In this document: in pieces, positions 25,999-37,545 of the stretch
Layout: the number at the start of each line of letters is the position of its first letter
How positions within the stretch are numbered: position 1 is the stretch's first letter
IMG/VR virus record: IMGVR_UViG_3300043449_000907
Span: 1-40,702 of that record
Length of the DNA stretch: 40,702 nt
Strand: one strand, 5' to 3'
Source: a virus
Program-made: the position numbers and the translations under genes
The notes under the pieces: model-generated
Database searches by the model: none
Seen by the model: the letters and a program-made list of their open reading frames with translations, nothing else
What the model was told of the DNA's origin: nothing

Positions 25999-26004
25999 GA
26001 AATT

Positions 26005-26030
26005 ATTATATCAGATATTTATGATAAAAT
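26005..26030. promoter_or_regulatory. Divergent leaderless -10 boxes
   Basis: Minus strand TATAAT (26005-26010) is 6 nt before the methyltransferase ATG. Plus strand TAAAAT (26025-26030) is 6 nt before the ATG at 26037. Neither has a good -35 and the two promoters overlap back to back. Confidence 0.6.
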
Positions 26031-26036
26031 GAGTAA

Positions 26037-26246
26037 ATGGAAAACCAGGGTAAAGATGTAACACCACTAGATCTATTTAATCCAAAGGCCCCTAGGAGCG
26101 ATACAGAGCTTAAGGAGCATAGAATGGATATATGTAGAGGCTGTGAGCATTTCAGAGAAAGATCGGAAAGATGTATGAAGTGTGGTTGTTTTATGCAACT
26201 CAAAAGCACCTTGCTTATGGCTAAGTGTCCTATTGGGAAATGGTGA
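26037..26246 (+). CDS. Small zinc-ribbon protein (phage CxxC...CxxCGCF family)
   Basis: 69 residues. The C-terminal 37 residues (DICRGCEHFRERSERCMKCG then CFMQLKSTLLMAKCPIGKW) form a zinc ribbon with CxxC, CxxCxC and a final Cys before PIGKW. This type is frequent in T4-like and other phages, with no known role. It is probably leaderless and is the first rightward gene. A hairpin ACGAAC/GTTCGT follows at 26259-26273. Confidence 0.75.
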   Translation: MENQGKDVTPLDLFNPKAPRSDTELKEHRMDICRGCEHFRERSERCMKCGCFMQLKSTLLMAKCPIGKW

Positions 26247-26289
26247 CTTTGAGTCAAGACGAACTGTGTTCGTTATATACCGTCCAAAT

Positions 26290-26317
26290 TTGACAAATCC
26301 TTAAGTTGTGCTATCAT
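26290..26317 (+). promoter_or_regulatory. Sigma-70-type promoter
   Basis: TTGACA, 16 bp, TATCAT. It drives the gene at 26350, which has AGGAAAAGGAGA as ribosome site. Confidence 0.6.
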
Positions 26318-26349
26318 TGTATTAACCTAATTAGGAAAAGGAGACAGTT

Positions 26350-26544
26350 ATGCTAATGCGTCAAGAAGTCGTAGATCTTATGACTAACGCCATTGAGAAC
26401 ATGAATCGTCAAATGGCTGTTCAGCAGAATGCACCATCAGACCAAGTTGAAGAAGCTATTTCACAGCAAAAGCCTCAGCTAATGTATGTAAATGGATTGC
26501 TTTATGATCTACTAGTAGAAAATGGTGTTATTGTTAATCGTTAA
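26350..26544 (+). CDS. Hypothetical protein
   Basis: 64 residues. Mostly helical (VVDLMTNAIENMNRQMAVQQNAPSDQVEEAISQQK), ending in LMYVNGLLYDLLVENGVIVNR. Preceded by a strong ribosome site, with its own promoter and a strong terminator just after the stop, so it is a single-gene unit. No family recognised. Confidence 0.7.
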   Translation: MLMRQEVVDLMTNAIENMNRQMAVQQNAPSDQVEEAISQQKPQLMYVNGLLYDLLVENGVIVNR

Positions 26545-26707
26545 CAATACCCTTCAAAATTAGACCAGACTCGGTTTCGACTGTATCTGGTCTTTTTTTA
26601 TGATCATTTTCTGATTTGTGAGAACAGCCATTACAGCAAAAATCTGAAAATATTTTCATAGGCCAATTATCGTATTGGGGATATTCTTTATCAAAGCTAT
26701 CTGTCAT
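26534..26707 (-). CDS. Small Cys-containing protein, antisense and probably leaderless
   Basis: 57 residues from MTDSFDKEYPQYDNWP. The ATG stands exactly 6 nt after TATAAT on the minus strand. CCNGC in the middle and a basic patch (HKSENDHKKRP) suggest a metal site. The last 11 nt overlap the convergent plus-strand gene, and a plus-strand terminator stem is embedded in its coding part. That double use lowers my confidence. Confidence 0.4.
   Translation of the reverse strand: MTDSFDKEYPQYDNWPMKIFSDFCCNGCSHKSENDHKKRPDTVETESGLILKGIVND
26562..26599 (+). terminator. Rho-independent terminator
   Basis: AGACCAGA (26562-26569), loop, TCTGGTCT (26586-26593) then a run of seven T. It ends the 26350-26544 unit. 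Confidence 0.85.
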
Positions 26708-26828
26708 GATTCTATTATACCCTGGACAAAATCTGAAAAATTTCATTTTTGAGAAAATCTGAATATTTTTTAAATATGTACGATACACGATTTAGAATGA
26801 AAAAACCTGCAAAAATAGTGAGCACATT

Positions 26829-26850
26829 GTTATCAAAACGTTATCAAAAC
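26829..26850 (+). promoter_or_regulatory. 11-bp tandem operator, best copy
   Basis: Two perfect copies of GTTATCAAAAC, 20 bp upstream of the -30 element at 26871. Confidence 0.6.
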
Positions 26851-26870
26851 ACCCCACTGGGTGCTTGAAT

Positions 26871-26893
26871 TTGTCAGTGGGGGGTGCTATGCT
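26871..26893 (+). promoter_or_regulatory. Fixed-spacing promoter H
   Basis: TTGTCA, exactly 11 bp (GTGGGGGGTGC), TATGCT, 34 bp before the ATG of the next gene. A CACCCCACTG / CAGTGGGG inverted repeat spans its 5' side. Confidence 0.6.
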
Positions 26894-26926
26894 ATAAGCA
26901 TAGAAAGTAAAAAGAAAGGACATAAA

Positions 26927-27274
26927 ATGTCACTAGTAATAACAAAAGAAAACTTCGATGAAGTTCGTACCAATGGAATCGGTAACGGTTTCTCAGTAAT
27001 AAATCCTGCTGATGGTTTCCGTAAGGATAACCGCCTATGGTTTGGTACTTGTTCAGTATGTAATGAATCAGTAACTAACTCTGCTGTATCAGGTAGAGGT
27101 TGGGAACACACTGTGTTTCTAATGAAGGGTTACTTCTCTAAGGATAACTACCTAAAGGGAATAACTAATCACGCTAGTAGTAAGCACGTTACTTACTGCC
27201 CTACTCAAAAGGGTGAATCTATCCCTTGCGAAATCTACTACATGGAAAATGGTGAAAAGGTTATCGTAGAATAA
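26927..27274 (+). CDS. Hypothetical protein with possible zinc site
   Basis: 115 residues from MSLVITKENFDEVRTNG; AGAAAGGA precedes this ATG. Residues about 44-47 (CSVC) together with the later HASSKHVTYC could bind zinc. GNGFSVINPADGFRKDNRLWFGTCSVC is followed by GWEHTVFLMKGYFSKDNYL. Cysteine-rich proteins of this kind are numerous in the early region; no family recognised. Driven by promoter H. Confidence 0.7.
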   Translation: MSLVITKENFDEVRTNGIGNGFSVINPADGFRKDNRLWFGTCSVCNESVTNSAVSGRGWEHTVFLMKGYFSKDNYLKGITNHASSKHVTYCPTQKGESIPCEIYYMENGEKVIVE

Positions 27275-27296
27275 CCCACCATAACACGGCGTGTCA

Positions 27297-27328
27297 GCTT
27301 GACAAATGATCATAAAAGGGCTCGCCCC
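27297..27328 (+). repeat. CGGCGTGTC motif and GGGCTCGCCCC element
   Basis: CGGCGTGTC at 27297-27305 and GGGCTCGCCCC at 27318-27328, both found in further intergenic regions to the right. An AATGTCCGATTTGTAC motif starts right after it and a second AATGTCCG lies at about 27376; it recurs at 28610 and 31461. Confidence 0.5.
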
Positions 27329-27400
27329 AATGTCCGATTTGTACCTTTTATCATGTGATATAAAACACCCTATAAATGTCCGTTTTGTGCGTGTCGAAAC

Positions 27401-27429
27401 TTGACTTTTGGGGATATCTGTGCTAGTAT
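27401..27429 (+). promoter_or_regulatory. Sigma-70-type promoter M
   Basis: TTGACT, 17 bp, TAGTAT with an extended TGTGC upstream. It stands 100 bp before promoter A and would first read a short leader. Confidence 0.65.
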
Positions 27430-27435
27430 TCTACT

Positions 27436-27527
27436 ATAAACAATTAAATAAAGATAAATAAGGTAATGAGCCTAAGCAAATAAATGTGACTAGTATCACA
27501 GTGAGCCTTAGCAAATAAAGCCCCTAT
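27436..27527 (+). ncRNA. Leader between tandem promoters with twin MSLSK mini-ORFs
   Basis: The leader contains ATG AGC CTA AGC AAA TAA (27466-27483) and GTG AGC CTT AGC AAA TAA (27501-27518), which encode the same five residues. Between them is TGTG-8-CACA (27485-27500). A second leader at 28552-28632 shares ATAAA, AAATA, AGATAAATAA and TGTG-8-CACA. Could be a leader-peptide device or a small RNA. Confidence 0.4.
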
Positions 27528-27550
27528 TTGTCAGACCCCTATGCTAGGAT
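27528..27550 (+). promoter_or_regulatory. Fixed-spacing promoter A
   Basis: TTGTCA, 11 bp (GACCCCTATGC), TAGGAT, 34 bp before the ATG at 27584. Confidence 0.6.
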
Positions 27551-27583
27551 AGTCCTATCAGTTAATAAAGAAAGGTTGTCAAA

Positions 27584-27766
27584 ATGATAACACTAGAAAA
27601 AACAATAACATGCGAAAAGCATGTCCCTAATAAGTCTGCTAAGTCATTCCACAATGACACTTGCTACACATTCTGTGAATCATGTGAGCAGAATATCGAA
27701 TCATGGTATATGGACTATGATAGTGACCGACTATCTGGTTGGTCAGATTGGAAGGTATCTAACTAA
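27584..27766 (+). CDS. Small zinc-finger-like protein
   Basis: 60 residues. Cys/His residues C10, H13, C27, C31 and C34 (CEKHVPN ... CYTFCESC) can form a zinc knuckle; the tail has SGWSDWKVSN. RBS AAAGAAAGG. First gene of a three-gene unit with TAATG coupling to the next. Confidence 0.7.
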   Translation: MITLEKTITCEKHVPNKSAKSFHNDTCYTFCESCEQNIESWYMDYDSDRLSGWSDWKVSN

Positions 27767-27942
27767 TGTATAAAGTAAAACTAGAATCGTTCAATGGTAA
27801 TGTCTCTACAATTACCCTACCTAATAAAGAGGCAGTAGAGTCTTTCATCTCTGCCTACCCTGAAAAATTGCCTACTGGTACAGCGATAAAGGTATCGTGT
27901 GACCTACTAGGTATCCGTGGCTCTATTGTAGGAAAGGCTTAA
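27766..27942 (+). CDS. Small hypothetical protein
   Basis: 58 residues beginning MYKVKLESFNGNVSTITLPN and ending CDLLGIRGSIVGKA, beta-rich. The start shares one base with the stop of the gene before (TAATG). No family recognised. Confidence 0.65.
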   Translation: MYKVKLESFNGNVSTITLPNKEAVESFISAYPEKLPTGTAIKVSCDLLGIRGSIVGKA

Positions 27943-27945
27943 TAA

Positions 27946-28107
27946 ATGAAAACATGTAAAGTAATAAATTGCGAAAATACTAACCTAGTATATAGTGGCA
28001 TAGATGCCCTTATGCTGGGGGGTATCCCTACTGAGACCTATTGCTACACCTGTGCAGCTGCCTATGCAGTAATAAGTGCAGATGTAGAAGAATTGCTAAA
28101 TGTCTGA
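27946..28107 (+). CDS. Small double-CxxC zinc protein
   Basis: 53 residues. C4 and C9 (TCKVINC) plus C33 and C36 (CYTC) fit a treble-clef-like zinc site. A GGAAAGG ribosome site lies in the end of the previous gene. Its last codons run into promoter B. Confidence 0.65.
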   Translation: MKTCKVINCENTNLVYSGIDALMLGGIPTETYCYTCAAAYAVISADVEELLNV

Positions 28108-28122
28108 CCCCTGTGTTAGAAT
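28100..28122 (+). promoter_or_regulatory. Fixed-spacing promoter B
   Basis: ATGTCT, 11 bp (GACCCCTGTGT), TAGAAT, 31 bp before the ATG at 28153; it overlaps the end of the preceding gene. Confidence 0.6.
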
Positions 28123-28152
28123 AATGGCATAAAGAAAGAAAGGAAAACTAAA

Positions 28153-28299
28153 ATGTCAAAAGTAATCTGTGTGTTTTGTGAAAACATCTACTCTGAGGGC
28201 GTAATGGTCTGTCAGGAATGTAATGAATACAAGGGGCTTATGCCGTTAGAACAGGCTAAGCAAACCTACGACTTTCTAAACCTAGAAGATGAGGAATAA
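28153..28299 (+). CDS. Small zinc-ribbon protein
   Basis: 48 residues. CVFC at residues 6-9 and CQEC at 20-23 form a compact zinc ribbon, followed by an acidic helix (EQAKQTYDFLNLEDEE). RBS AAGAAAGGAA. Typical early microprotein, function unknown. Confidence 0.7.
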   Translation: MSKVICVFCENIYSEGVMVCQECNEYKGLMPLEQAKQTYDFLNLEDEE

Positions 28300-28304
28300 A
28301 ATAA

Positions 28305-28436
28305 ATGATTTTCTATAACGGATTTAATTTGCTTGTTGATATCGTAATCGGTTTTCTAGTTTTTAAACTTGCGTATTCTAGTGGATACAATAAAGGTTTT
28401 AATGACTCAGAAGATTTGAATGGTCCCCCGTTTTAA
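28305..28436 (+). CDS. Small membrane protein
   Basis: 43 residues with one hydrophobic helix (LLVDIVIGFLVFKLAY), a short N-terminus and a tail with SGYNKGFNDSEDLNGPPF. GAGGA lies 9 nt before the ATG inside the end of the previous gene. Its stop lies in a CCCG-TTTTAA-CGGG hairpin that begins an intergenic element. Confidence 0.6.
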   Translation: MIFYNGFNLLVDIVIGFLVFKLAYSSGYNKGFNDSEDLNGPPF

Positions 28437-28469
28437 CGGGATCCATTTTATCCGAACATCTGTTCGAAA

Positions 28470-28514
28470 GGGCGAGCCCCGTTATCAAATTGTTATAATT
28501 CTTACGGCGTGTCG
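28470..28514 (+). repeat. Intergenic element: GGGCGAGCCCC, operator, CGGCGTGTCG
   Basis: GGGCGAGCCCC at 28470-28480 is followed without a gap by GTTATCAAATTGTTATAATT (28481-28500) and CGGCGTGTCG (28505-28514), just upstream of promoter N. The same parts in changed order are found in six other intergenic regions. Confidence 0.55.
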
Positions 28515-28516
28515 AT

Positions 28517-28545
28517 TTGACTTTTTAAGTTATGTGTGCTAGTCT
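28517..28545 (+). promoter_or_regulatory. Sigma-70-type promoter N
   Basis: TTGACT, 17 bp, TAGTCT with extended TGTGC. It precedes promoter C by about 115 bp, an arrangement parallel to M and A. Confidence 0.6.
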
Positions 28546-28551
28546 TATCTC

Positions 28552-28632
28552 ATAAAATTAAATAGTAGATAAATAAATGTGGTTCAAATCACAATCCCAA
28601 AAGTCGGGAATGTCCGAATTGTACCTCTCAAT
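28552..28632 (+). ncRNA. Leader between promoters N and C
   Basis: Shares ATAAA...AAATA..AGATAAATAA and a TGTG-8-CACA hairpin (28579-28594) with the leader at 27436-27527. It adds a TCCC/GGGA hairpin and an AATGTCCGAATTGTAC motif. It has no MSLSK mini-ORF. Confidence 0.35.
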
Positions 28633-28655
28633 TTGTCAGACCCCCCTGCTATACT
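28633..28655 (+). promoter_or_regulatory. Fixed-spacing promoter C
   Basis: TTGTCA, 11 bp (GACCCCCCTGC), TATACT, 48 bp before the ATG at 28703. Confidence 0.6.
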
Positions 28656-28702
28656 TTCAGGTATAGAAGGTTAAAGAAAGTCTCTTGAAAGGAGAACTAA
28701 AA

Positions 28703-28999
28703 ATGAAAAAGTTTCGTTCTATTGAAATCGGTTCAGCCGTTGCTATCTACAATCGTGCAGGTAGTAAAAAAATCGAAGGTTCAGAAAAGCCTAACGGCTC
28801 TTTCTTAGCCCGTAAAATGTTCTACACTAATCCTGTTGCTGTTGGTACAGTAACTAAGATTCACGGGCACAATGCCCACGCTGTCCGTATCACTCTTGAT
28901 AACGGAAAAGAAATTGAAATGGGTTTAGATACTCACTATCACCTAAATGGTGAAATCGGTGAGTGTGTTGCTCACCAAGATAATTACTCAATTATCTAA
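28703..28999 (+). CDS. Hypothetical beta-barrel-like protein
   Basis: 98 residues from MKKFRSIEIGSAVAIYN, with AAAGGAGAACT before the ATG. VGTVTKIHGHNAHAVRITLDNGKEIEMG looks like an SH3-like or KOW-type barrel with histidines in the loops. Function unknown; single-gene unit between promoters C and D. Confidence 0.68.
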   Translation: MKKFRSIEIGSAVAIYNRAGSKKIEGSEKPNGSFLARKMFYTNPVAVGTVTKIHGHNAHAVRITLDNGKEIEMGLDTHYHLNGEIGECVAHQDNYSII

Positions 29000-29022
29000 A
29001 TGTCAGACCCCTGTTATATAAT
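29000..29022 (+). promoter_or_regulatory. Fixed-spacing promoter D
   Basis: ATGTCA, 11 bp (GACCCCTGTTA), TATAAT, 28 bp before the ATG at 29050. Its first base is directly after the stop of the previous gene. Confidence 0.65.
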
Positions 29023-29049
29023 TAAACTACTAAAGAAAGGTGACAACTA

Positions 29050-29250
29050 ATGTCAGCAAATGTATATACAATCGAAGAAGCCCTAAAGGGAACTTACTAT
29101 CGCTCACACACTCTTAGAGGTGTAATCGAATACGCAGAAAAGCGTGATGATGTTTGGTATCAAGGTGCAGAAGCGTACCTTGTAACTATCCGCCCAGAAT
29201 ACGGAATTGGGTATAAGTATCGTACTATCGCAGTAAAGGTTGGTGAATAA
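29050..29250 (+). CDS. Small hypothetical protein
   Basis: 66 residues (MSANVYTIEEALKGTYYRSH ... YRTIAVKVGE), alpha/beta. RBS AAAGAAAGG. First gene of a unit with 29252 and 29455. No family recognised. Confidence 0.65.
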   Translation: MSANVYTIEEALKGTYYRSHTLRGVIEYAEKRDDVWYQGAEAYLVTIRPEYGIGYKYRTIAVKVGE

Positions 29251-29251
29251 T

Positions 29252-29455
29252 ATGTATCAGATAACTGTTGCCTATGATGGAAATCAAATCCATTTCAATC
29301 AAAACTATGCAGATGCTCTTGAAGCATTTACCGCATTTAATAACTTCAAGGATTGGGGTTGGGCACTTGAATACTCAACTGTTAATCTCTCAATGCCAAC
29401 AGGCAAAATGTACACACGCATTTTTCACCGAGATGGAAAGGTGGTAACACGATAA
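29252..29455 (+). CDS. Small hypothetical protein
   Basis: 67 residues from the ATG of MYQITVAYDGNQIHFNQNY; upstream TTG/GTG codons lie in the end of the gene before. GGTTGGTG acts as ribosome site. Contains DALEAFTAFNNFKDWGWALEY. One-base overlap (TAATG) with the next gene. Confidence 0.65.
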   Translation: MYQITVAYDGNQIHFNQNYADALEAFTAFNNFKDWGWALEYSTVNLSMPTGKMYTRIFHRDGKVVTR

Positions 29456-29562
29456 TGGAAATATTTATCTGTTCTGGGTGCAATACCCTCGCAACTGTAA
29501 AAATGACAGGCGACACGATAACTGTCAATGCTTGCAAATGTCAGACCAATGCACTAAACTAA
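29455..29562 (+). CDS. 35-residue zinc microprotein
   Basis: C6-SG-C9 and C27-K-C29 (ACKCQT) can bind a metal. Coupled to the previous gene by TAATG. The end of its coding sequence doubles as promoter L. Confidence 0.55.
   Translation: MEIFICSGCNTLATVKMTGDTITVNACKCQTNALN
29538..29560 (+). promoter_or_regulatory. Fixed-spacing promoter L
   Basis: ATGTCA, 11 bp (GACCAATGCAC), TAAACT, 38 bp before the ATG at 29598; inside the end of the previous gene. Confidence 0.5.
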
Positions 29563-29597
29563 TAACACAAACCAAATAGAAAAGGATAGAAAATAAA

Positions 29598-29786
29598 ATG
29601 ATGACTCGTAAAGACTATGTAAAGACTGCACAGATTCTAAACAACTATGCAGATGAGATTGACTTTCTAGTATTGCAAGAAATTGCAGACGGATTCGCAG
29701 AAATGTTTGAGGCAGATAACCCAAACTTTAACTATCAGAAATTTATTGACGCTGTTTTTGAGCCAATAAATTCAGACGAAGAATAA
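29598..29786 (+). CDS. Small acidic helical protein
   Basis: 62 residues. The chain is helical (DYVKTAQILNNYADEIDFLVLQEIADGFAEMFEADNPNFNYQKFIDAVFEPI) and acidic. Proteins of this 'FIxAVFxP' type recur in phage early regions as far as I recall; function unknown. Two ATG codons in a row (29598, 29601) are possible starts; AAAGGATAG precedes. Confidence 0.68.
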   Translation: MMTRKDYVKTAQILNNYADEIDFLVLQEIADGFAEMFEADNPNFNYQKFIDAVFEPINSDEE

Positions 29787-29820
29787 AAAAGCTTCCCCTG
29801 TTGGGCGGATCGTAGAAATG

Positions 29821-29849
29821 CGACACGCCCGACTACGGGGGCGAGGCCC
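29821..29849 (-). repeat. CGACACGCC motif and GGGGGCGAGGCCC element
   Basis: CGACACGCC (29821-29829) is the reverse of CGGCGTGTC seen elsewhere. GGGGGCGAGGCCC (29837-29849) is a hairpin-forming version of the GC-rich element. GGGCG (29804) could pair with CGCCC and CGTAG with CTACG in a crossed way, a possible pseudoknot. Confidence 0.45.
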
Positions 29850-29870
29850 TGTGGATAACTTTGTGGATAA
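29850..29870 (-). promoter_or_regulatory. Pair of DnaA boxes
   Basis: TGTGGATAA at 29850-29858 and 29862-29870, start-to-start 12 bp, next to an operator repeat at 29873-29893. Confidence 0.55.
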
Positions 29871-29872
29871 CT

Positions 29873-29893
29873 ATTATAACGTTTTGATAACAT
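29873..29893 (-). promoter_or_regulatory. 11-bp tandem operator, reverse orientation
   Basis: On the minus strand GTTATCAAAAC followed by GTTATAATA. It lies 24 bp upstream of promoter O. Confidence 0.5.
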
Positions 29894-29916
29894 TTACGTA
29901 TTAAGTCATTAAGGAC

Positions 29917-29945
29917 TTGACTTCCTGATTCGAAAATGGTAGTAT
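29917..29945 (+). promoter_or_regulatory. Sigma-70-type promoter O of a leaderless gene
   Basis: TTGACT, 17 bp, TAGTAT, then exactly 6 nt to the ATG at 29952. The clearest case of a complete promoter driving a leaderless mRNA here. Confidence 0.7.
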
Positions 29946-29951
29946 TAAGTT

Positions 29952-30128
29952 ATGAAAAATAAGACTAAGAAATATCAACCAACGGCTAACCCTGCCTATG
30001 CCGAAGGTATGAGAGAGATTCGAAAGTCTAATGCTAGTGGCACTCACCTAGATCGAAGGACACGCCGATTAAGGACTAGACAAAGTGCTATCTATCGTGC
30101 TATTATTGACCAACAGAAAGAAGGATAA
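29952..30128 (+). CDS. Small basic protein
   Basis: 58 residues. N-terminus MKNKTKKYQPTANPAYAEGM, then basic THLDRRTRRLRTRQ. Similar Arg-rich small proteins with 'NPAYAEGMRE.R.S.A...H.DRRT' are, to my recollection, common in actinobacterial phages. It could bind nucleic acid. Leaderless; the stop is 2 nt before the next ATG. Confidence 0.68.
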   Translation: MKNKTKKYQPTANPAYAEGMREIRKSNASGTHLDRRTRRLRTRQSAIYRAIIDQQKEG

Positions 30129-30130
30129 CT

Positions 30131-30418
30131 ATGGGAAGCAACATGGCAACGGAATTGGCTGATAAAGACCTATTCCCTAATCTAACACTAGAAGACGCAA
30201 TTGGTATGCACTTACGTGGCAACCACTATCCACCTGTACCTCTAACTATGGTACAGCCTTGTATTGAAGCTATTAACGCTTACAATGAGGATGAAGGCTC
30301 ACGTATGATTACCCTGCCCGAAGGCGTATCTTGGCGTGGAGCAATTGAGGCACCTGCCTATGCAATTATTGAGGCACACCACCTTGACGCTTGGCTTGAC
30401 TTGGATGAAGATTACTGA
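30131..30418 (+). CDS. Hypothetical protein
   Basis: 95 residues: MATELADKDLFPNLTLEDAI, then a middle with YPPVPLTMVQPCIEAINAYNEDEG, LPEGVSWRGAIEAPAYAIIEAHHLDAWL. Family name not recognised, although the PPVP..MV.PC..AI pattern is familiar from actinobacterial phages. GAAGGATAAC precedes the first ATG. A promoter for the next gene lies in its last 25 nt. Confidence 0.7.
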   Translation: MGSNMATELADKDLFPNLTLEDAIGMHLRGNHYPPVPLTMVQPCIEAINAYNEDEGSRMITLPEGVSWRGAIEAPAYAIIEAHHLDAWLDLDEDY

Positions 30419-30424
30419 TAAAAT
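30396..30424 (+). promoter_or_regulatory. Sigma-70-type promoter
   Basis: TTGACT, 17 bp, TAAAAT, embedded in the end of the previous gene, 25 bp before the ATG of the GP88-like gene. Confidence 0.6.
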
Positions 30425-30449
30425 AGTTTAAAGAAAGAAAGGAACCCCT

Positions 30450-31166
30450 ATGCTAACTCGTTCGAAAGATAGGAAAGTAACTAATGCCGTATCCCCAAAT
30501 GGAAAAACCCCAACTATCGCCAACACTTTTGGATTACCTAGTGGAAAGGCTTACTCGTGCCCTGGTGCAACCACTGTATGTGAAAGTGTCTGCTACGCAG
30601 GAAAACTAGAGAAAGTCTATAAAGGCGTAAAGAATGTATTGCTATCCAATTGGGAGCAATTGAAAGACGCTGATTATCTAACTATGTATAATCTATTGGA
30701 TGAAATGATTATTGCATTCAAGAAAGATTGTGATAAGCGTAGTGCAGAAAAACTATTCCGTATTCACTGGGATGGTGATTTCTTTAATGAGACCTATGTA
30801 TTAGCATGGAAGGATGTAATCCTTAAGCATGTAGATACACAATTTTGGGCCTATACCCGTTCAGACTTTGCCGTTGAACCATTAACAGGTATTGCTAACC
30901 TATCACTTTATTTTAGTACTGATAGTGCTAATCGTGTATTGGGTATTCAACTCAAGAAGAAGCATGACGTTAAGTTAGCATACCTTGCTAAGACTTTTGC
31001 AGAAGGTAAGGCAGACTTTGAAGCAATTCAAGATAAGGCTGCCATTCCATGCCCCGAAAATGCTAAGAAGATAAAACTGATTAGTGATAAGGGCAGTGCA
31101 TGTGTAACTTGTTCACAATGTGTATTTAATCGCAATGACATTCTATTTAGTGCAACTAAGAAATGA
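30450..31166 (+). CDS. GP88-family cysteine-rich protein
   Basis: 238 residues. Cysteines are in two groups: C37, C44 and C48 in SCPGATTVCESVCYAGKLEK, and C201, C218, C221 and C224 near the end (IPCPEN ... ACVTCSQC). This and the 'IHWDGDFFNETYVLAWKDVI' and 'FWAYTRS' motifs match the 'gene product 88' family common in mycobacteriophages and other phages. A seven-cysteine pattern with CxxCxxC suggests an iron-sulfur or zinc centre, but the function is not known. RBS AAGAAAGGAAC. It is transcribed from its own promoter together with 31173. Confidence 0.82.
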   Translation: MLTRSKDRKVTNAVSPNGKTPTIANTFGLPSGKAYSCPGATTVCESVCYAGKLEKVYKGVKNVLLSNWEQLKDADYLTMYNLLDEMIIAFKKDCDKRSAEKLFRIHWDGDFFNETYVLAWKDVILKHVDTQFWAYTRSDFAVEPLTGIANLSLYFSTDSANRVLGIQLKKKHDVKLAYLAKTFAEGKADFEAIQDKAAIPCPENAKKIKLISDKGSACVTCSQCVFNRNDILFSATKK

Positions 31167-31172
31167 GGAACT

Positions 31173-31328
31173 ATGCAAACCTATACAGTTGAAAAACTAA
31201 CCAATGATATCTATGAGGATAACTATTCTCATATTGACTTTATAGAAAACATGAATAGCGGTGATTGTGATTGTAGCATTCATGCTGCCATGGATTTAAT
31301 TGGGACGTATTGGGGAAAGAATTGTTAA
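31173..31328 (+). CDS. Small hypothetical protein with CDC motif
   Basis: 51 residues (MQTYTVEKLTNDIYEDNYSH ... SGDCDCSIHAAMDLIGTYWG). GAGGAA lies before the ATG and the gene follows the GP88-like stop by 6 nt. No family recognised. Confidence 0.6.
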   Translation: MQTYTVEKLTNDIYEDNYSHIDFIENMNSGDCDCSIHAAMDLIGTYWGKNC

Positions 31329-31387
31329 TCCTTGGAATATGCCTAGCTCTATTAACAATTTTTCTGATCCAATAAATGTCGGTGGGA

Positions 31388-31458
31388 GGGGCTCGCCCAT
31401 TTTTATCTGTTTGTCAAGTTTTACGTATTTACGGCGTGTCGTTATGAAATCGTTATAA
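31388..31458 (+). repeat. GGGGCTCGCCC, CGGCGTGTCG and operator cluster
   Basis: GGGGCTCGCCC (31388-31398), CGGCGTGTCG (31432-31441) and GTTATGAAATCGTTATAA (31441-31458) in a row, followed by AATGTCCGATTTGTGG. The 334-bp gap 31329-31662 otherwise holds only promoters Q and F and a second operator. Confidence 0.55.
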
Positions 31459-31492
31459 ATAATGTCCGATTTGTGGCGTTTTGGATTTGCTA

Positions 31493-31515
31493 TTGTCGGA
31501 GGGTTTCGCTATAAT
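31493..31515 (+). promoter_or_regulatory. Fixed-spacing promoter Q
   Basis: TTGTCG, 11 bp (GAGGGTTTCGC), TATAAT. It stands 95 bp upstream of promoter F, so the two are in tandem. Confidence 0.6.
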
Positions 31516-31555
31516 TGTAGTAGTTGGAAATCAGCAGACAAAAAAGTAAATAGTT

Positions 31556-31575
31556 GTTATCAAAATGTTATCAAA
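31556..31575 (+). promoter_or_regulatory. 11-bp tandem operator
   Basis: GTTATCAAAATGTTATCAAA, 12 bp upstream of promoter F and downstream of the start site expected for Q, so it could repress Q and act on F. Confidence 0.55.
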
Positions 31576-31587
31576 TAGACTTGATAA

Positions 31588-31610
31588 ATGTCAGAGGTAT
31601 CCGCTACAAT
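31588..31610 (+). promoter_or_regulatory. Fixed-spacing promoter F
   Basis: ATGTCA, 11 bp (GAGGTATCCGC), TACAAT, 53 bp before the ATG at 31663. The element starts with an ATG in frame with the gene, but the ribosome site argues for the downstream start. Confidence 0.55.
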
Positions 31611-31662
31611 AGTATTATCAACAAAAGTTGGTATAAAACAACAGAAATGGAAAGGAAGCAAA

Positions 31663-31815
31663 ATGACCGCAACTTACAAGATTGGTGACACTTTCACCAC
31701 CCTCAAGTCAAAGGTTACTGGAACTATCGAAGAGATTGTTCCTAACGCATCTGGCTCGGTGCGTGTTCGCCTAAATGTAAATGGTAATCCACGCTGGACT
31801 ACCTACAAGGCATAA
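31663..31815 (+). CDS. Small beta-barrel-like protein
   Basis: 50 residues from MTATYKIGDTFTTLKSKVTG. GGAAAGGAAGC precedes this ATG; upstream ATGs lie in the promoter. The sequence (VTGTIEEIVPNASGSVRVRLNVNG) is a short SH3-like barrel. No family recognised. Confidence 0.65.
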   Translation: MTATYKIGDTFTTLKSKVTGTIEEIVPNASGSVRVRLNVNGNPRWTTYKA

Positions 31816-31861
31816 CGGGTATGATGTGCTGGGTATCACAATAAACTACCCACCCACCAAC

Positions 31862-31891
31862 TTGACTTATTACCCCAAGTCGTAGTAAAAT
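31862..31891 (+). promoter_or_regulatory. Sigma-70-type promoter K
   Basis: TTGACT, 18 bp, TAAAAT, 35 bp before the ATG at 31926. Confidence 0.55.
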
Positions 31892-31925
31892 AGTATAAAC
31901 AAACAAATGAAAGAAGGAAGAAATA

Positions 31926-32372
31926 ATGGCAAAATCGCTAGCAGTAAAAATCCCAACGACTTCTCTTATCGCAGAAGTTGAGTCACAAATCGCAAAGGTA
32001 GAGCAGGACATTGACAACTACTCTGCCCTCCGTAAGCAGTATGACCTTGATGTAAAGCAGTATGAGAAGGAAGTTATCGCTCACGCTATCAAGGCACTAT
32101 CTGACCCAACAAACATTGGAACTGAGAACGGCTCACTTGTTCGTGTAACAGGTAACTATCGCTACAACGGCGTATCTGTTGAGTTCGATACAGAGGCACT
32201 AGGCTTCCCTAAGCGACCTGAAGAACCACAGCGACCAAACGAAAAGACTTACTATGGTCGTGACTACACTACCAAGTTGGACTTGCTCAAAAAGAACCTA
32301 AAGGTTCTCAAGATGACTACGCAGGAAGAAGTAAATGCTTCGACCTACAACTCCGTAATGGAACTTCTCTAA
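31926..32372 (+). CDS. Hypothetical coiled-coil protein
   Basis: 148 residues. Residues about 15-57 are a coiled coil (VESQIAKVEQDIDNYSALRK then QYDLDVKQYEKEVIAHAIKAL). A short beta section follows (GSLVRVTGNYRYNGVSVEFD), then a proline-rich RPEEPQRPNE and a second helix (KLDLLKKNLKVLKMTTQEEV). RBS GAAGGAAG. Related proteins occur in other actinobacterial phages as I recall; role unknown. Confidence 0.72.
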   Translation: MAKSLAVKIPTTSLIAEVESQIAKVEQDIDNYSALRKQYDLDVKQYEKEVIAHAIKALSDPTNIGTENGSLVRVTGNYRYNGVSVEFDTEALGFPKRPEEPQRPNEKTYYGRDYTTKLDLLKKNLKVLKMTTQEEVNASTYNSVMELL

Positions 32373-32387
32373 ACTGAGAAACTGACC

Positions 32388-32413
32388 TGAGCAAGTCAAT
32401 GATAAAAGGCTCA
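32388..32413 (+). ncRNA. 3' RNA hairpin TGAGC/GCTCA
   Basis: Stem TGAGC (32388-32392) with GCTCA (32409-32413) downstream of the 31926 gene. GACCTGAGCA-GTC-ATG...GCTCA is shared with the hairpin at 33779, where the stem is one pair longer. Confidence 0.4.
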
Positions 32414-32448
32414 CACTAATAATCCCAACAAAGAACAGGAAAATAAAA

Positions 32449-32628
32449 ATGGCTCGTAAGAAGATTGTAATCGCAACAGAAAAGTGGAACACCAAGAACG
32501 GTGAAATCTACAAGGCAGTAGTTCGTGATGCTAATGGACACTTCATTGGTGCTACTAATCAGACCAAGAACATTCCCGTAAAGCAGAAGCGAAAGTCGCC
32601 AATGACTCTCTTCCTTGTTGGGAAGTAA
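32449..32628 (+). CDS. Small basic protein
   Basis: 59 residues: MARKKIVIATEKWNTKNGEI, VVRDANGHFIGATNQTK, then basic KQKRKSPMTLFLVGK. The 'Y-V-V-RD..G.F...TNQT' centre resembles small DNA- or RNA-binding phage proteins. AACAGGAAAA serves as RBS. Probably read from promoter K with the previous gene. Confidence 0.65.
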   Translation: MARKKIVIATEKWNTKNGEIYKAVVRDANGHFIGATNQTKNIPVKQKRKSPMTLFLVGK

Positions 32629-32641
32629 GAAAAACTAACCT

Positions 32642-32704
32642 AGGTATGTTATTAAACTGCCTCCCCTTGTGGGGTTGACAAATGGATCAGCTGAGGGCTC
32701 GCCC
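32642..32704 (+). ncRNA. Paired hairpins plus GGGCTCGCCC element
   Basis: Stem 1 AGGTA / TGCCT (32642-32662, loop ends TAAAC), stem 2 CCCC-TTGT-GGGG (32663-32674), then GGGCTCGCCC at 32695-32704. The hairpin at 35014 has the same length and loop end but stem AGGCA / TGCCT, so pairing is kept while the sequence changes. Confidence 0.5.
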
Positions 32705-32705
32705 T

Positions 32706-32750
32706 TTATAACGTTTTGGTAACATTTAAGAAAAAGCTTACGACACGCCG
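32706..32750 (-). repeat. Operator repeat and CGGCGTGTCG motif, reverse orientation
   Basis: On the minus strand GTTACCAAAACGTTATAAA (32706-32726) and CGGCGTGTCG (32741-32750), directly upstream of promoter E. Confidence 0.5.
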
Positions 32751-32765
32751 ATGTACGATTTGCAT

Positions 32766-32788
32766 TTGTCAGACCCCCTATGTATAAT
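32766..32788 (+). promoter_or_regulatory. Fixed-spacing promoter E
   Basis: TTGTCA, 11 bp (GACCCCCTATG), TATAAT, 30 bp before the ATG at 32818. One of the best copies. Confidence 0.65.
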
Positions 32789-32817
32789 TATAGGTATAAA
32801 GAGAAAGAAGGAAAGAA

Positions 32818-33339
32818 ATGGGTACAAGAGGTATCACACAGGTAATCGATTCAAATGGTCAGACCGTTGTTGCACAGTATGGCCAATGGGACCACTATCC
32901 AGAAGGACAGGGTTTAAACATTCTATCATTTTTGACCTCAAGTCACAACATTATTGAACTACTTGAGAAGTCACTATTTAAATGCTACTTCGCAACTGAA
33001 TCAGAGTTGGAAGAGATGTACAAGCCATTCGTTACCGCTGATGGCATGATGACAATGGATAACAGCGATAAGTTTGCTGTAATGTATCCTAGTCTAACTA
33101 GAAACACAGGTTCAGACATTCTTAAGGTAGTTACTTATTCGACTGGCCGTGTTCCACTATCTAATCAGATTGACTTCATTGAGGACGACCTGATGTGTGA
33201 GGGTATCTATACAATTGATTTCCAGACTAGACTATTCACTTCACAGTATGGTGGAAAAAAGGTTGTGTTTGCTCTTGACAAACTCCCTACCGCTGATTTA
33301 TACTTGAATGAGTTCGCAAAGGAAGAGGTAATGGCATAA
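32818..33339 (+). CDS. Hypothetical protein of the MGTRG...AQYGQWDxYPEGQG family
   Basis: 173 residues. The start MGTRGITQVIDSNGQTVVAQ with YGQWDHYPEGQGLNILSFL is a conserved opening found in many actinobacterial phages and also in plasmids, without known function. Residues about 40-70 are helical; the C-terminal half is alpha/beta (FTSQYGGKKVVFALDKLP). RBS GAAAGAAGGAAAG. First gene of a three-gene operon with one-base overlaps. Confidence 0.75.
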   Translation: MGTRGITQVIDSNGQTVVAQYGQWDHYPEGQGLNILSFLTSSHNIIELLEKSLFKCYFATESELEEMYKPFVTADGMMTMDNSDKFAVMYPSLTRNTGSDILKVVTYSTGRVPLSNQIDFIEDDLMCEGIYTIDFQTRLFTSQYGGKKVVFALDKLPTADLYLNEFAKEEVMA

Positions 33340-33530
33340 TGGAAAAGACAGAATACACAATCCTAACAGGTGAGTCATATAGCGTTATGGCCACAAGCGA
33401 AGACGAAGCAATGGCAAAGTTCTTTGTTCATCTAGGTTTTTCAGATGAGGAAGACTACAAGGATTCAGGATTTAATTTTTCTGATGAGAATGATGTAGAA
33501 TATAGCGAAACACTAACGGAGGTATTGTAA
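33339..33530 (+). CDS. Small acidic protein
   Basis: 63 residues. YTILTGESYSVMATSEDEAMAKF looks like the strand-helix start of a small alpha/beta domain; the rest is very acidic (SDEEDYKDSGFNFSDENDVEYSE). Coupled by TAATG to both neighbours. Confidence 0.65.
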   Translation: MEKTEYTILTGESYSVMATSEDEAMAKFFVHLGFSDEEDYKDSGFNFSDENDVEYSETLTEVL

Positions 33531-33727
33531 TGAGTAAGTATCAAACGGTAACCGTCAAACTAACTGGCAATGATGGGAATGCATTCTCAATCATGGCCCA
33601 AGTCTCAAAGGCACTGCGTAAAGCTGGAGCTAGCTCTGAAGAGGTAGAACAGTATATGTCTGAGTCTATGTCTGGAGACTACAATAATCTTCTACGTACC
33701 GCAATGAAATGGGTTAACGTAGAGTAA
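33530..33727 (+). CDS. Small conserved phage protein (LTGxDGNAFxIMxxVxxALRKAG family)
   Basis: 65 residues. TVKLTGNDGNAFSIMAQVSKALRKAGASSEEVEQYMSESMSGDYNNLLRTAMKWVNV is a small conserved protein found in phages of very different hosts and in plasmids; function unknown. An ACGGAGG ribosome site ends the gene before it, and the start overlaps that stop. Confidence 0.78.
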   Translation: MSKYQTVTVKLTGNDGNAFSIMAQVSKALRKAGASSEEVEQYMSESMSGDYNNLLRTAMKWVNVE

Positions 33728-33778
33728 GGGGTACTGCAGGCCGTTCATCCTTTCTTTCTGCCTGCATGCTAAGGGACC

Positions 33779-33839
33779 TGAGCACGTCCATGTAAACTGC
33801 TCATTACCCTTGCACTGGGGATCGAAAAGTGCTCGCCCC
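33779..33839 (+). ncRNA. Hairpin, possible pseudoknot and GCTCGCCCC element
   Basis: Stem TGAGCA / TGCTCA (33779-33803) with a loop ending TAAAC. Then GCACT and AGTGC pair around GGGGATCGAAA, and the GGGG in that loop could pair with the CCCC of GCTCGCCCC (33831-33839), an H-type pseudoknot. A TGCAGGC/GCCTGCA stem lies a little upstream at about 33735-33766. Confidence 0.45.
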
Positions 33840-33897
33840 TGTGGATAACTCTGATCAGCCTGTGGATAACTTTGTTACGAGATCGTTACGACACGCC
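33840..33897 (-). promoter_or_regulatory. DnaA box pair, operator and CGACACGCC motif
   Basis: TGTGGATAA at 33840-33848 and 33861-33869 (21 bp apart), a degenerate GTTACGAGATCGTTACGA at 33874-33891 and CGACACGCC at 33889-33897, all upstream of promoter I. Confidence 0.5.
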
Positions 33898-33924
33898 CAT
33901 GATTTTTGGCTATTTGATTTGACA

Positions 33925-33947
33925 TTGTCGGTGGGGTCATGTAAGAT
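33925..33947 (+). promoter_or_regulatory. Fixed-spacing promoter I
   Basis: TTGTCG, 11 bp (GTGGGGTCATG), TAAGAT, 41 bp before the DUF932 gene. Confidence 0.6.
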
Positions 33948-33987
33948 TATAGTATTAGAAAAACCCTACAACAGAAAGGAGCCTCTC

Positions 33988-35001
33988 ATGGCTCATTTGC
34001 TAGAATCAGACGCTAACGGAAACACTGCTTTCGCATCTTTGCGAGAGCCTGCATGGCATGGTCTTGGAACTGTGTTCAATGAAGAAGTTACTACATCTAA
34101 GATGTTGGAACTCGCTCACCTAGACAACTGGAATGTTCGTCTTGAAGACGTATCAATTCCTGACACATTCGCAAGTGACAAGAACTATTTCTTCGTTACT
34201 CGCACAAACCCATTCGACAATTCTCAGAACGATGTTCTTGGCGTTGTTGGCGAACGCTACAAGGTTTTGCAGAATGAAGATTTGTTCTCATTCGGTGACA
34301 ACATTCTTGATGGTGGCGGACGTTGGGAAACTGCTGGCTCAATCAAGGGTGGTCGTGTTGTGTTCGGCTCTCTTGCTCTTGAACGTGAAACTGTTCTTGA
34401 CCCTACTGGCGTTGCAGATAAGGTAAAGACTTATCTTCTAATCAACACCTCTCACGATGGTTCAATTGCAATTCAAGCAAGCATTACACCTGTTCGTGTT
34501 GTGTGTGCTAACACTCTCAACCTTGCTCTTGGCTCACGTGGTCGTGGTCCTAAGCAATCTTTCAAGATTCGTCACACTCAGACTGCAGAAGGCAAGATTG
34601 CTGTTGCACGTGAGACTCTTGGCTTGGCTAACAAGTACATGGACGAATTCGACAAGATGGCACACGCCATGATTCAGACTGAGGTCAATGCTAAGCAATT
34701 CAACGACATCATTCTTGCTGCTTATCCTAAGCCTGACAAGGACACTAAGGGTGCTGTCAAGAAGTGGGAAAACAAGGTAGATGTTATCAATGACATTTAC
34801 ACTGGTCAATTCAACGGCATGATTGCTGGCAACGCTTGGGGTGCTTTCAATGCACTAACTGAACGTCTTGATTGGTATCGCTCAGCACGTGGTGGTTCTA
34901 ACGAATCTATCCTTGCAAGTGCAAGTGGATTTGACCCTGCTATCAATGCAGAAAAGAATCGCCTGCTCAAGATTGTGCAGAACACTTTGCAGACTGCATA
35001 A
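33988..35001 (+). CDS. DUF932 / phage-plasmid-like protein
   Basis: 337 residues from MAHLLESDANGNTAFASLREPAWHGLG, the typical start of the DUF932 family. ACAGAAAGGAGCC precedes this ATG, and the open frame upstream is promoter and DnaA-box DNA, so the longer reading is wrong. Later hallmarks: VVGERYKVLQNEDLFSFGDNILDGGG, ERETVLDPTGVADKVKTYLLINTSHDGSIAIQASITPVRVVCANTLNLAL and the RHTQTAEGKIAVARETLGLANKY helix. The family is common in phages and plasmids of Gram-positive bacteria; the biochemical role is not known, though DNA or nucleotide binding is often guessed. The codon third positions differ somewhat (more C/T) from its neighbours, so it may be a more recent arrival. Confidence 0.85.
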   Translation: MAHLLESDANGNTAFASLREPAWHGLGTVFNEEVTTSKMLELAHLDNWNVRLEDVSIPDTFASDKNYFFVTRTNPFDNSQNDVLGVVGERYKVLQNEDLFSFGDNILDGGGRWETAGSIKGGRVVFGSLALERETVLDPTGVADKVKTYLLINTSHDGSIAIQASITPVRVVCANTLNLALGSRGRGPKQSFKIRHTQTAEGKIAVARETLGLANKYMDEFDKMAHAMIQTEVNAKQFNDIILAAYPKPDKDTKGAVKKWENKVDVINDIYTGQFNGMIAGNAWGAFNALTERLDWYRSARGGSNESILASASGFDPAINAEKNRLLKIVQNTLQTA

Positions 35002-35013
35002 TTATGCACTCCT

Positions 35014-35086
35014 AGGCATGAGTATAAACTGCCTCCCTCTGGGGATCGTGTTGAGCTTGACAAACGCACGAAAAGGGGCTCGCCCC
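35014..35086 (+). ncRNA. Paired hairpins plus GGGGCTCGCCCC element
   Basis: Stem 1 AGGCA / TGCCT (35014-35034), then CCC / GGGG (35035-35044), CGTG / CACG further on, then GGGGCTCGCCCC at 35075-35086. It follows the stop of the DUF932 gene and is the counterpart of 32642-32704. Confidence 0.5.
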
Positions 35087-35114
35087 AAATTGTTTTATTT
35101 GTCAAGTCAATTTA

Positions 35115-35216
35115 AATTACGATAGTATAACATTTTCCTGGGATTACGTACACTAGGACAAATAGTCACAAATTGGACATTACGTAGCTTATTTGATCCA
35201 TTTGGAGGATTACGTA
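35115..35216 (+). repeat. Cluster of ATTACG repeats
   Basis: ATTACG occurs four times in about 100 bp: AATTACGATAG, GGATTACGTACACTAG, GACATTACGTAGC and GGATTACGTACAGC. Four more lie near 38579, 38883, 39024 and 39165. Nothing else is visible between 35087 and promoter J. Confidence 0.4.
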
Positions 35217-35230
35217 CAGCCTACTTGACT

Positions 35231-35253
35231 TTGTCAGGGGGTAGGTGTAAAAT
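35231..35253 (+). promoter_or_regulatory. Fixed-spacing promoter J
   Basis: TTGTCA, 11 bp (GGGGGTAGGTG), TAAAAT, 32 bp before the ATG at 35285. Confidence 0.6.
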
Positions 35254-35284
35254 TGAAGTATCAGAAAGTAGAAAGGAAAACCCC

Positions 35285-35815
35285 ATGCATGTATTGCAAA
35301 ATATAGCAATTAAGGCAGAATCAAAAGATGAGGCTGCTGAAATTGTCAAATCTAAGTTCGATAGTATGTATTCAGAATCTGAGGGCTTAGGAGGCTGGAG
35401 TGATTGGTTCGTTGTTGGTGGTGGGCGTTGGAACAGCAGTTCTTCTAATCAGTACCACGATAGTAGTAATGACGTTATCTCTTATGTTGATAACATGGAA
35501 CAATTTAATCTTACCGTTAGCAACTCTCTTCAATACCGCCGTGAAGAAGTGGAGAGAATGAAGGAACGTATTGACTTCGATAAGTTCCAGAATGTGATTG
35601 ATAAGTTTATTTCAAATGACTTCTCAAATGAGGATAGGTTTGATATGAACACATGGTATATCAAGAAGATTGCTAGTATTATTAATGGCGAATGGAACTC
35701 AGACAGTTATTTCTACGACCTAGAAAACTATTCGACATCTTCAGAATATATGCAGGAGAACCTTGACAAGGGTTCTAAAAAATGGTATCTTGTACCAGTA
35801 GACTTCCACTTCTAA
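35285..35815 (+). CDS. Hypothetical phage protein (SDWFVVGGGRWN family)
   Basis: 176 residues from MHVLQNIAIKAESKDEAAEIV; AGAAAGGAAAACCCC precedes the ATG. The N-terminal domain ends in GGWSDWFVVGGGRWNSSSSN, a motif I know from uncharacterised phage proteins. A helical region follows (YRREEVERMKERIDFDKFQNVIDKF), and the C-terminus is WYLVPVDFHF. First gene of a run of overlapping genes up to 36943. Confidence 0.7.
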   Translation: MHVLQNIAIKAESKDEAAEIVKSKFDSMYSESEGLGGWSDWFVVGGGRWNSSSSNQYHDSSNDVISYVDNMEQFNLTVSNSLQYRREEVERMKERIDFDKFQNVIDKFISNDFSNEDRFDMNTWYIKKIASIINGEWNSDSYFYDLENYSTSSEYMQENLDKGSKKWYLVPVDFHF

Positions 35816-35833
35816 GAGAAAGTAGATAAACAA

Positions 35834-36013
35834 ATGGGACTATACAACGTAAAGGTAGTAGTTGAGTACGAGTATGAGGTAGAGGCTGATAGCCTTGAAG
35901 AAGCAGAAAAGCAAGGCTTTGAGTATGAGGACTATTCTTATACTGCTGACATTTATAGCATAGACGCTGAAGAACTTCCTTCTGATGAAGATGAGGAGGA
36001 TGAAGATGAGTAA
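35834..36013 (+). CDS. Small acidic protein
   Basis: 59 residues. A beta-alpha start (MGLYNVKVVVEYEYEVEADSLEEAEKQG) is followed by an extremely acidic tail of D and E. The start of the next gene lies inside the acidic tail. Confidence 0.65.
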   Translation: MGLYNVKVVVEYEYEVEADSLEEAEKQGFEYEDYSYTADIYSIDAEELPSDEDEEDEDE

Positions 36014-36200
36014 GTATATTACCAATGTTAATGGTGATTGGTGGGAGCTTAACCCTACCGACCCAGTTTGGGTACTAGACACTAACAATTTGACGGCAGA
36101 GCAATTTTCTGCTATCATTGATGAACATGACGGATTTGGCAATGACAAGTTCGAAGACGTAATTCGAGAGTATGGAAGAGAGACCCCACTTAATGTCTAA
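36006..36200 (+). CDS. Small hypothetical protein
   Basis: 64 residues from MSKYITNVNGDWWELNPTDP; the ATG is 8 nt inside the previous gene with GAGGAGG upstream. An ITNVNGDWWELxPxDPVWVL pattern followed by a helix (LTAEQFSAIIDEHDGFGNDKFEDVIREYG) is familiar from actinobacterial phages. Function unknown. Confidence 0.68.
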   Translation: MSKYITNVNGDWWELNPTDPVWVLDTNNLTAEQFSAIIDEHDGFGNDKFEDVIREYGRETPLNV

Positions 36201-36621
36201 GTTTTATACATATGGCTCTTGGGTAGATACCTTTAAGCCAATCAGAAATAATATCAGTAAGTATCAAGACGACAGCCTTATCCACTTTGAGACCTACGGT
36301 GAAGAAGTAGATTTTGTAAAGAAGGCTGACCCTAAGCACATCTGGACTGAAGTAGATGGTGACGAGGGTACTTATATCGTAGCAGGCTGGCACTTCGTCA
36401 ATCGTATTCACTACTACATCACAGAGAATCCTTGGGAAGATGAATACACAGAGATTCCTACTTGGACCTATCGTCCATGTGATTGTAGTGATGAGACTGA
36501 AGACGGAGAGTATAATCCTGAATGCCCTGAGTGTGATGAGGGCCTAGTAGATATCGACTGTGACACCGTAGAAGCCCTTAAGCAGATTTATGGAGAAGAC
36601 AATGCTGACATTATTTCGTAA
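36193..36621 (+). CDS. Hypothetical protein with a DnaJ-like cysteine cluster
   Basis: 142 residues from MSKFYTYGSWVDTFKPIRNN; an ATG 21 nt upstream is an alternative. The middle (ETYGEEVDFVKKADPKHIWTEVDGDEGTYIVAGWHFVNRIHYYIT) is a folded domain; near the C-terminus PCDCSDETEDGEYNPECPECDEG gives four or five cysteines that can bind zinc. Overlaps both neighbours. Confidence 0.68.
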   Translation: MSKFYTYGSWVDTFKPIRNNISKYQDDSLIHFETYGEEVDFVKKADPKHIWTEVDGDEGTYIVAGWHFVNRIHYYITENPWEDEYTEIPTWTYRPCDCSDETEDGEYNPECPECDEGLVDIDCDTVEALKQIYGEDNADIIS

Positions 36622-36943
36622 GAAGACTAAGACTATGATTGACTATGACCTGAACATCTTCATGCTGGAGATTCAGGACCCAATGACTGATGAATGGTAC
36701 TACGACCCTACCTCGTGGCATGTGCACGTATACAAGGTAGATGGAGCTGGGCACCATGAGGTTGACGTTGCAAGGCCACTAACACCCGAAGAGATTAGAG
36801 GCCTGGCCCTTAACAACGATCCATATTTTGATGGTGGCGATGCCTGGTATGGAATGTATGGGTACCTGAAGGACTATGAGTCAATCATCCCTAATACTAT
36901 TAAACAATACTTGGAATCATTCCCAATGTATGAAGCTTCCTAG
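36602..36943 (+). CDS. Hypothetical protein
   Basis: 113 residues from MLTLFRKKTKTMIDYDLNIF, with GGAGAAG 4-10 nt upstream. The rest (QDPMTDEWYYDPTSWHVHVYKVDGAGHHEVDVARPLTPEEI and DAWYGMYGYLKDYESIIPNT) is alpha/beta with no known family. The first 20 nt overlap the gene before. Last gene of the 35285-36943 run. Confidence 0.68.
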   Translation: MLTLFRKKTKTMIDYDLNIFMLEIQDPMTDEWYYDPTSWHVHVYKVDGAGHHEVDVARPLTPEEIRGLALNNDPYFDGGDAWYGMYGYLKDYESIIPNTIKQYLESFPMYEAS

Positions 36944-36964
36944 TTGAGCTTAGCTCCTAGGATA

Positions 36965-37040
36965 TGGTACAGCTAAGGGGTTGGCTGTATCACCAAGGAG
37001 GGGGGCAGGTGGACATTTCCTACTTTCACCACTTGCCCTC
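36965..37040 (+). terminator. Two strong hairpins downstream of the 36602 gene
   Basis: Stem TACAGC / GCTGTA (with flanking pairs, 36965-36992) and a long stem GGGCAGGTGG / CCACTTGCCC (37003-37012 with 37029-37038, one G-U pair). The second stem contains the -35 of the next promoter, so it may be an attenuating terminator or a switch. No T-run is present. Confidence 0.45.
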
Positions 37041-37061
37041 TTCCCCAATTTTTGGTATAAT
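37033..37061 (+). promoter_or_regulatory. Sigma-70-type promoter
   Basis: TTGCCC, 17 bp, TATAAT, 18 bp before the ATG at 37080. It drives the 37080-38474 operon. Confidence 0.6.
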
Positions 37062-37536: not shown

Positions 37537-37545
37537 AATAGAACT

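Follow-up and report, generated by a model that had tools for sequence, protein, structure and literature searches.

The LexA-independent DNA-damage promoters of actinobacteria (RecA-NDp) have the sequence tTGTCRgtg, eight nucleotides and TannnT (PMC5656591). Promoters of the activator PafBC consist of TGTCGG, TGTCAG or TGTCAC, ten bases of any kind and TA-3N-T, and the orientation of the motif is essential (PMC8151990). PafBC is present constitutively (PMC10693628) and becomes active when single-stranded DNA (ssDNA) binds to its WYL domains; it sits between the DNA and domain 4 of SigA, with the helix-turn-helix (HTH) of PafB on the -26 motif and the HTH of PafC on SigA domain 4 (PMC11804915). 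This mode of action is termed sigma adaptation. A second WYL activator that senses ssDNA, SiwR, requires the -26 region of its promoter at the dinS operon of M. smegmatis (PMC10693628). Here we describe a class of promoters with a TGTCAG-type element at a predicted position of about -26 in a virus record of 40.7 kb (IMG/VR IMGVR_UViG_3300043449_000907, positions 1-40,702; hereafter the window), which is a fragment of a phage genome.

All sites of the class conform to W-TGTCNG-N10-TANNNT, with W at position p, TGTCNG at p+1 to p+6 and TANNNT at p+17 to p+22. They occupy a block that we infer to be the early region because of its synteny with Streptomyces phages. An original prediction, made from the window sequence, had named eleven sites with 11 bp between the end of the hexamer and the -10 box. 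All eleven were found where it had placed them, and its gap is an equivalent description of N10 counted after TGTCNG. When spacings 0-25 were scanned across positions 26,000-40,702, N10 was matched 13 times on the plus strand and every other spacing 0-3 times, and the minus strand gave no match at N10. In 500 dinucleotide-preserving shuffles of the early region, the mean number of matches was 0.094 and the maximum was 1; together with the spacing scans, the shuffles exclude a chance origin of the N10 sites. Two of the 13 matches (29050 and 33668) fall within coding sequence, are absent from the earlier list and are probably coincidental. The other eleven lie on the plus strand, in the orientation of the plus-strand genes they serve, and each precedes a gene or a further such promoter, as had been said of 31493, which lies upstream of the 31588 promoter. 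Start codons follow the end of the -10 box at a distance of 27-52 bp, a slight correction of the 28-53 bp first given. The core is TGTCAG or TGTCGG in 10/11 sites and TGTCTG in one.

The same geometry recurs in related phages, in which a search for the motif had been proposed. Among 80 related IMG/VR loci, whose DUF932 proteins are 82-93% identical to that of the window, we counted 618 matches at N10 and 10-40 at most other spacings; minor peaks at N5, N15 and N16 mostly represent the same promoters read to a second TANNNT. A stricter 17-base pattern (TTGTCAGACCCC..TGnTANNNT), scanned against 2.9 million IMG/VR contigs, matched at least 119 stretches of contig sequence at N10 and none at N9 or N11. 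Two such motif scans yielded 222 loci, 197 of which have genes in common with the window. In relatives of 90-117 kb, the sites form a single block of about 5-12 kb and nearly all lie on one strand. Counting sites within 150 bp upstream, as in all orthologue counts below, the gene at 27766 has one in 53/65 orthologues and GP88 has a -26-type site in 44/70 relatives. The promoter class is real, and its strict -26/-10 geometry is conserved across a phage lineage, which bears out the proposal of a fixed element and a likely activator; the element is predicted to lie near -26.

The profile built from 176 non-redundant sites is A-A/T-A/T-TGTCAG-(T/A)(C/G)(C/G)C...TGnTAnAAT, with A at position 5 of the core in 86%. 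At the predicted +1 position, A occurs in 73%, and counted from this peak the element would lie at -28 to -23. As judged from sequence, the element is identical to the PafBC promoter consensus in core and spacing, and from the predicted start it would hold the same position relative to transcription initiation. The likeness covers TGTC(A/G)G, the ten bases, TANNNT, the orientation and a predicted centre near -26, as in RecA-NDp (recA P1). Unlike the described PafBC promoters, these are phage-borne, about ten of them stand in one early block, many have a TTG-type -35 directly upstream, and the bases after TGTCAG are ACC or CCC as often as TGG. We consider it likely, with a probability of about 0.8, that the -26 promoters are PafBC-type phage promoters driven by the PafBC of the host.

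The host group of the phage is probably freshwater Actinobacteria. A DUF932 query against 84,980 species genomes gave a sole match, a 4.7-kb contig in an Actinomycetota metagenome-assembled genome, and the family of that genome is taken here as the candidate host. WYL proteins are encoded in 61/61 genomes of this family, mostly as adjacent pairs of about 310 amino acids. One pair that was checked matches PafB and PafC of the RNA polymerase-PafBC complexes 7P5X/9FND (E 1e-45 and 1e-24), carries HTH_PafC and is identical in the PafB HTH stretch RMFERDK. TGTC(A/G)G-N10-TANNNT, the phage element at its phage spacing, occurs upstream of recA in 9/29 genomes of the family, always at N10 even though N8-N12 were allowed. 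Further sites precede DnaE2-like and DUF6504 genes (beside SOS boxes), carD, dnaB and a DEDD exonuclease gene. Besides the pafBC pair, many of these genomes hold a third WYL match, mostly within an open frame of about 735 amino acids, and the element could be read by another host activator of the SiwR kind, which also works through the -26 region. We regard this as highly improbable: SiwR acts at a single operon, where its site is not TGTCRG but an imperfect palindrome containing a conserved GGA (PMC10693628), and the third frame is unlike SiwR in size.

The prediction had also held that the class has no consensus -35, which proved wrong. TTG-type hexamers stand at spacer 17-18 in 8/11 window sites. 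Six adjoin the element at spacer 17, namely TTGAAT (26865-26870, before 26871), TTGCAA (29538), TTGCTA (31493), TTGCAT (32766), TTGACA (33925) and TTGACT (35231), and two lie at spacer 18, TTGCTA (28100) and TTGATA (31588); only 27528, 28633 and 29000 are without one. Across 160 non-redundant sites, TTG occurs at spacer 17 or 18 in 69 (43%) and at other positions in 1-5 each, and nearly all DUF932 promoters of the relatives have it at the -35 position. An extended -10 (TGn) is present in 53%. A trade-off between the -35 and the extended -10 was rejected, as their association is not significant (Fisher p 0.15).

Mycobacteriophage stoperators, to which the phage repressor binds, are likewise short and asymmetric and occur in a phage genome. 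The frequent TTG and the asymmetry of an element lying between -35 and -10 would suit an operator of this kind, at which a phage-immunity or host repressor binds in the spacer of ordinary promoters. An operator would not be expected to combine a strict N10 with a lack of TTG at -35 in more than half of the sites, and in host genomes the same element and spacing mark the promoters of recA and DNA-repair genes. Unlike stoperators, the sites keep a fixed distance to the -10 box, occur at promoters only and do not extend beyond the early block. No repressor was recognised, but the greater part of the genome is missing and the search was not a full one. We judge an operator very unlikely. The TGn and TTG frequencies would also be expected of a spacer or extended -10 variant of sigma-A promoters that needs no added factor. 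This is hardly credible, since canonical promoters of the same block lack the six near-invariant bases at -28 to -23, for which we know of no sigma-A contact that fits, and since orthologous genes swap canonical TTGAC and -26 promoters as if the two were interchangeable. GP88 and the gene at 31926 are examples, with a canonical TTGAC promoter in the window and some relatives and a -26 type in others, even close ones (L004-L008 were compared). The two types appear to have been exchanged for one another during evolution.

The phage itself could supply an activator with PafBC-like specificity and geometry, as a true analogue of T4 MotA. WYL proteins are absent from 30 related phage records, several of which are incomplete, and sigma region 4 is absent from 19, some incomplete; as far as these records go, a phage WYL activator and a phage sigma factor were rejected. 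Searches for MotA and AsiA gave no match in 12 records, a weak negative, as no control genome gave a match either. Among related records G001-G026, WhiB is encoded in 14/19, and a RecA-like gene lies away from the early block in 10/12. In actinobacteria, the WhiB family is known to bind sigma-A region 4. WhiB is a possible partner at the -26 promoters, and many of the small early proteins are not assigned to any family. Nevertheless, an activator of early genes must itself be made before it can act, and the element is already present at host recA; we consider a phage-encoded activator unlikely. The part of the prediction that called for an activator is thus retained, with host PafBC as the likely one, and the proposed phage protein or altered polymerase is less likely, given the missing WYL and sigma region 4 proteins.

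The comparison with T4 that had been drawn holds for the mechanism and fails for membership. T4 MotA boxes are of the TGCTT type. In both systems an element of the activator type, situated (in the phage by prediction) at about -30 to -23, would take the place of -35 reading, which is what PafBC sigma adaptation achieves, and the distance to a sigma-70 -10 box is short and fixed. They differ in that the phage sequence is TGTCAG and the probable activator is the host's own. Membership in the MotA class was rejected on the element, which is TGTCAG across the relatives and not a MotA box, and on the MotA/AsiA searches, which had no positive control.

Several observations weigh against host PafBC. 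The class was not seen in the Streptomyces phages Riptide and Circinus or in Mycobacterium phage D29, phages in whose hosts PafBC is expected, and because the related Streptomyces phages are without it, the class was gained or lost within the wider phage family. The assignment to the candidate host family is a weak, one-contig link in which mis-binning is possible, and the promoter of the DUF932 gene on that contig is canonical and lacks the -26 element. In the host genomes, 20/29 recA upstream regions have no strict match. Genome-wide, the strict TTGTCAG pattern occurs 29 times compared with 16 for an N11 control, a ratio of only about two, and is about as common as the pattern read backwards. 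Because many phage sites have a -35, PafBC need not be essential for them.

If host PafBC does drive the class, PafB would read the element and PafC would contact sigma-A domain 4, judging from the homologous M. smegmatis complex, whose structure is solved, and RNA polymerase could then fire without the need for a good -35. As PafBC is constitutive and activated by ssDNA, the ssDNA arising from genome entry, replication or breakage of host DNA may turn on the early block. The roughly half of the promoters with a TTG-type -35 directly upstream would probably be fired at a basal level by sigma-A alone and boosted by PafBC. On balance we lean towards a broader proposal, in which a large freshwater actinophage lineage uses the ssDNA-sensing PafBC of its host as the on-switch of its early operons, so that the host damage alarm becomes the viral start signal, and hybrid promoters run their genes both before and after the alarm.

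Phages are known to respond to the host SOS repressor LexA. Here, a whole early block would be placed under the second, activator-based damage response of actinobacteria. For this we found no precedent in the open-access literature, and no paper there that links PafBC to phage promoters. PafBC would then be predicted to be a host factor for infection, and DNA damage or ultraviolet light in surface water to modulate early phage transcription. The lineage offers hundreds of natural PafBC-type promoters, including -35 hybrids, for dissecting sigma adaptation, and orthologous phage genes that are seen swapping canonical for activator-type promoters.

The left arm of the window, on the minus strand, encodes tail, capsid, protease and portal proteins. 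No nucleotide relative of the window was found among 50,697 phage records. The nearest proteins belong to 130-kb Streptomyces phages (such as Riptide, NootNoot and Circinus, the last classed in Stanwilliamsviridae in its record), with 43% identity for the capsid protein and 55% for the DUF932 protein. Most such Streptomyces phages encode DUF932 and GP88 homologues within the first 6 kb and twice per record, as expected of terminal repeats. In the window, the DUF932 protein (33988..35001, plus strand, Pfam PF06067) has its homologue in gene 2 of Riptide and similar Streptomyces phages, close to the end of their genomes, and GP88 (30450..31166, plus strand, Pfam PF17338) has a canonical TTGACT promoter at 30396. 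At the right end, an open reading frame with a T5orf172 (GIY-YIG-like) domain lies on the minus strand (39618-39974). The virus group is apparently abundant in lakes.

The individual promoters, all on the plus strand, differ in how widely they are kept. The first (26871..26893, TTGTCAG-N10-TATGCT) has a predicted start at 26900, serves the gene at 26930 and has a -26-type counterpart in 5/5 orthologues. TTGTCAG-ACCCCTATGC-TAGGAT (27528..27550) precedes the gene at 27584 (36/46 orthologues). The TGTCTG variant, ATGTCTG-N10-TAGAAT (28100..28122, gene 28153), is the weakest of the set, with 0/5. TTGTCAG-ACCCCCCTGC-TATACT (28633..28655), which has an extended -10, serves the gene at 28703 (5/5). 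Upstream of the gene at 29050, ATGTCAG-ACCCCTGTTA-TATAAT (29000..29022) recurs in 64/67 orthologues, and ATGTCAG-N10-TAAACT (29538..29560, gene 29598) in only 6/67. ATGTCAG-N10-TACAAT (31588..31610) precedes the gene at 31663 (36/72) and TTGTCAG-ACCCCCTATG-TATAAT (32766..32788) the gene at 32818 (6/6). Two are hybrids: TTGACA-TTGTCGG-N10-TAAGAT (33925..33947) serves the DUF932 gene at 33988, with a strict site in 73/80 orthologues and 79/80 when variants are included, and TTGACT-TTGTCAG-N10-TAAAAT (35231..35253) serves the gene at 35285 (6/9). The canonical TTGACT promoter of the gene at 31926 (31862..31926, plus strand) is replaced by a -26 promoter at the orthologue in the close relatives L005 and L008.

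The remaining site, TTGTCGG-N10-TATAAT (31493..31515), is the upstream half of a tandem pair with 31588, an arrangement shared with L004 and L005. The two promoters of the pair (31493-31610) lie about 95 bp from each other, and no gene is evident in between, as also in close relatives (L004, 7490-7610), and a short leader RNA from the pair is possible. Perfect inverted repeats of 6-7 bp extend from the -10 box over the predicted start at 26871-26915 (CTATGC..GCATAG) and 28633-28680 (CTATAC..GTATAG), and repeats of 7-8 bp are seen in a few relatives. As an operator, the dyad across -10/+1 at 26871 and 28633 was rejected, as it showed no clear excess over column shuffles.

Two synthetic 42-base consensus queries, a search of low sensitivity, recovered no isolated phage with the class. 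TTGTCAGTGGTGACTGATATGAT occurs within a nearly identical stretch of L308, L384 and L360 with no obvious gene close downstream, and could be a coding coincidence there. N10 sites are also present at 5016 (minus strand) in L280 and at 8911 and 11492 in L231, contigs of 65% and 52% GC that have no gene in common with the window, and the class may also be in use among further groups of actinophages.

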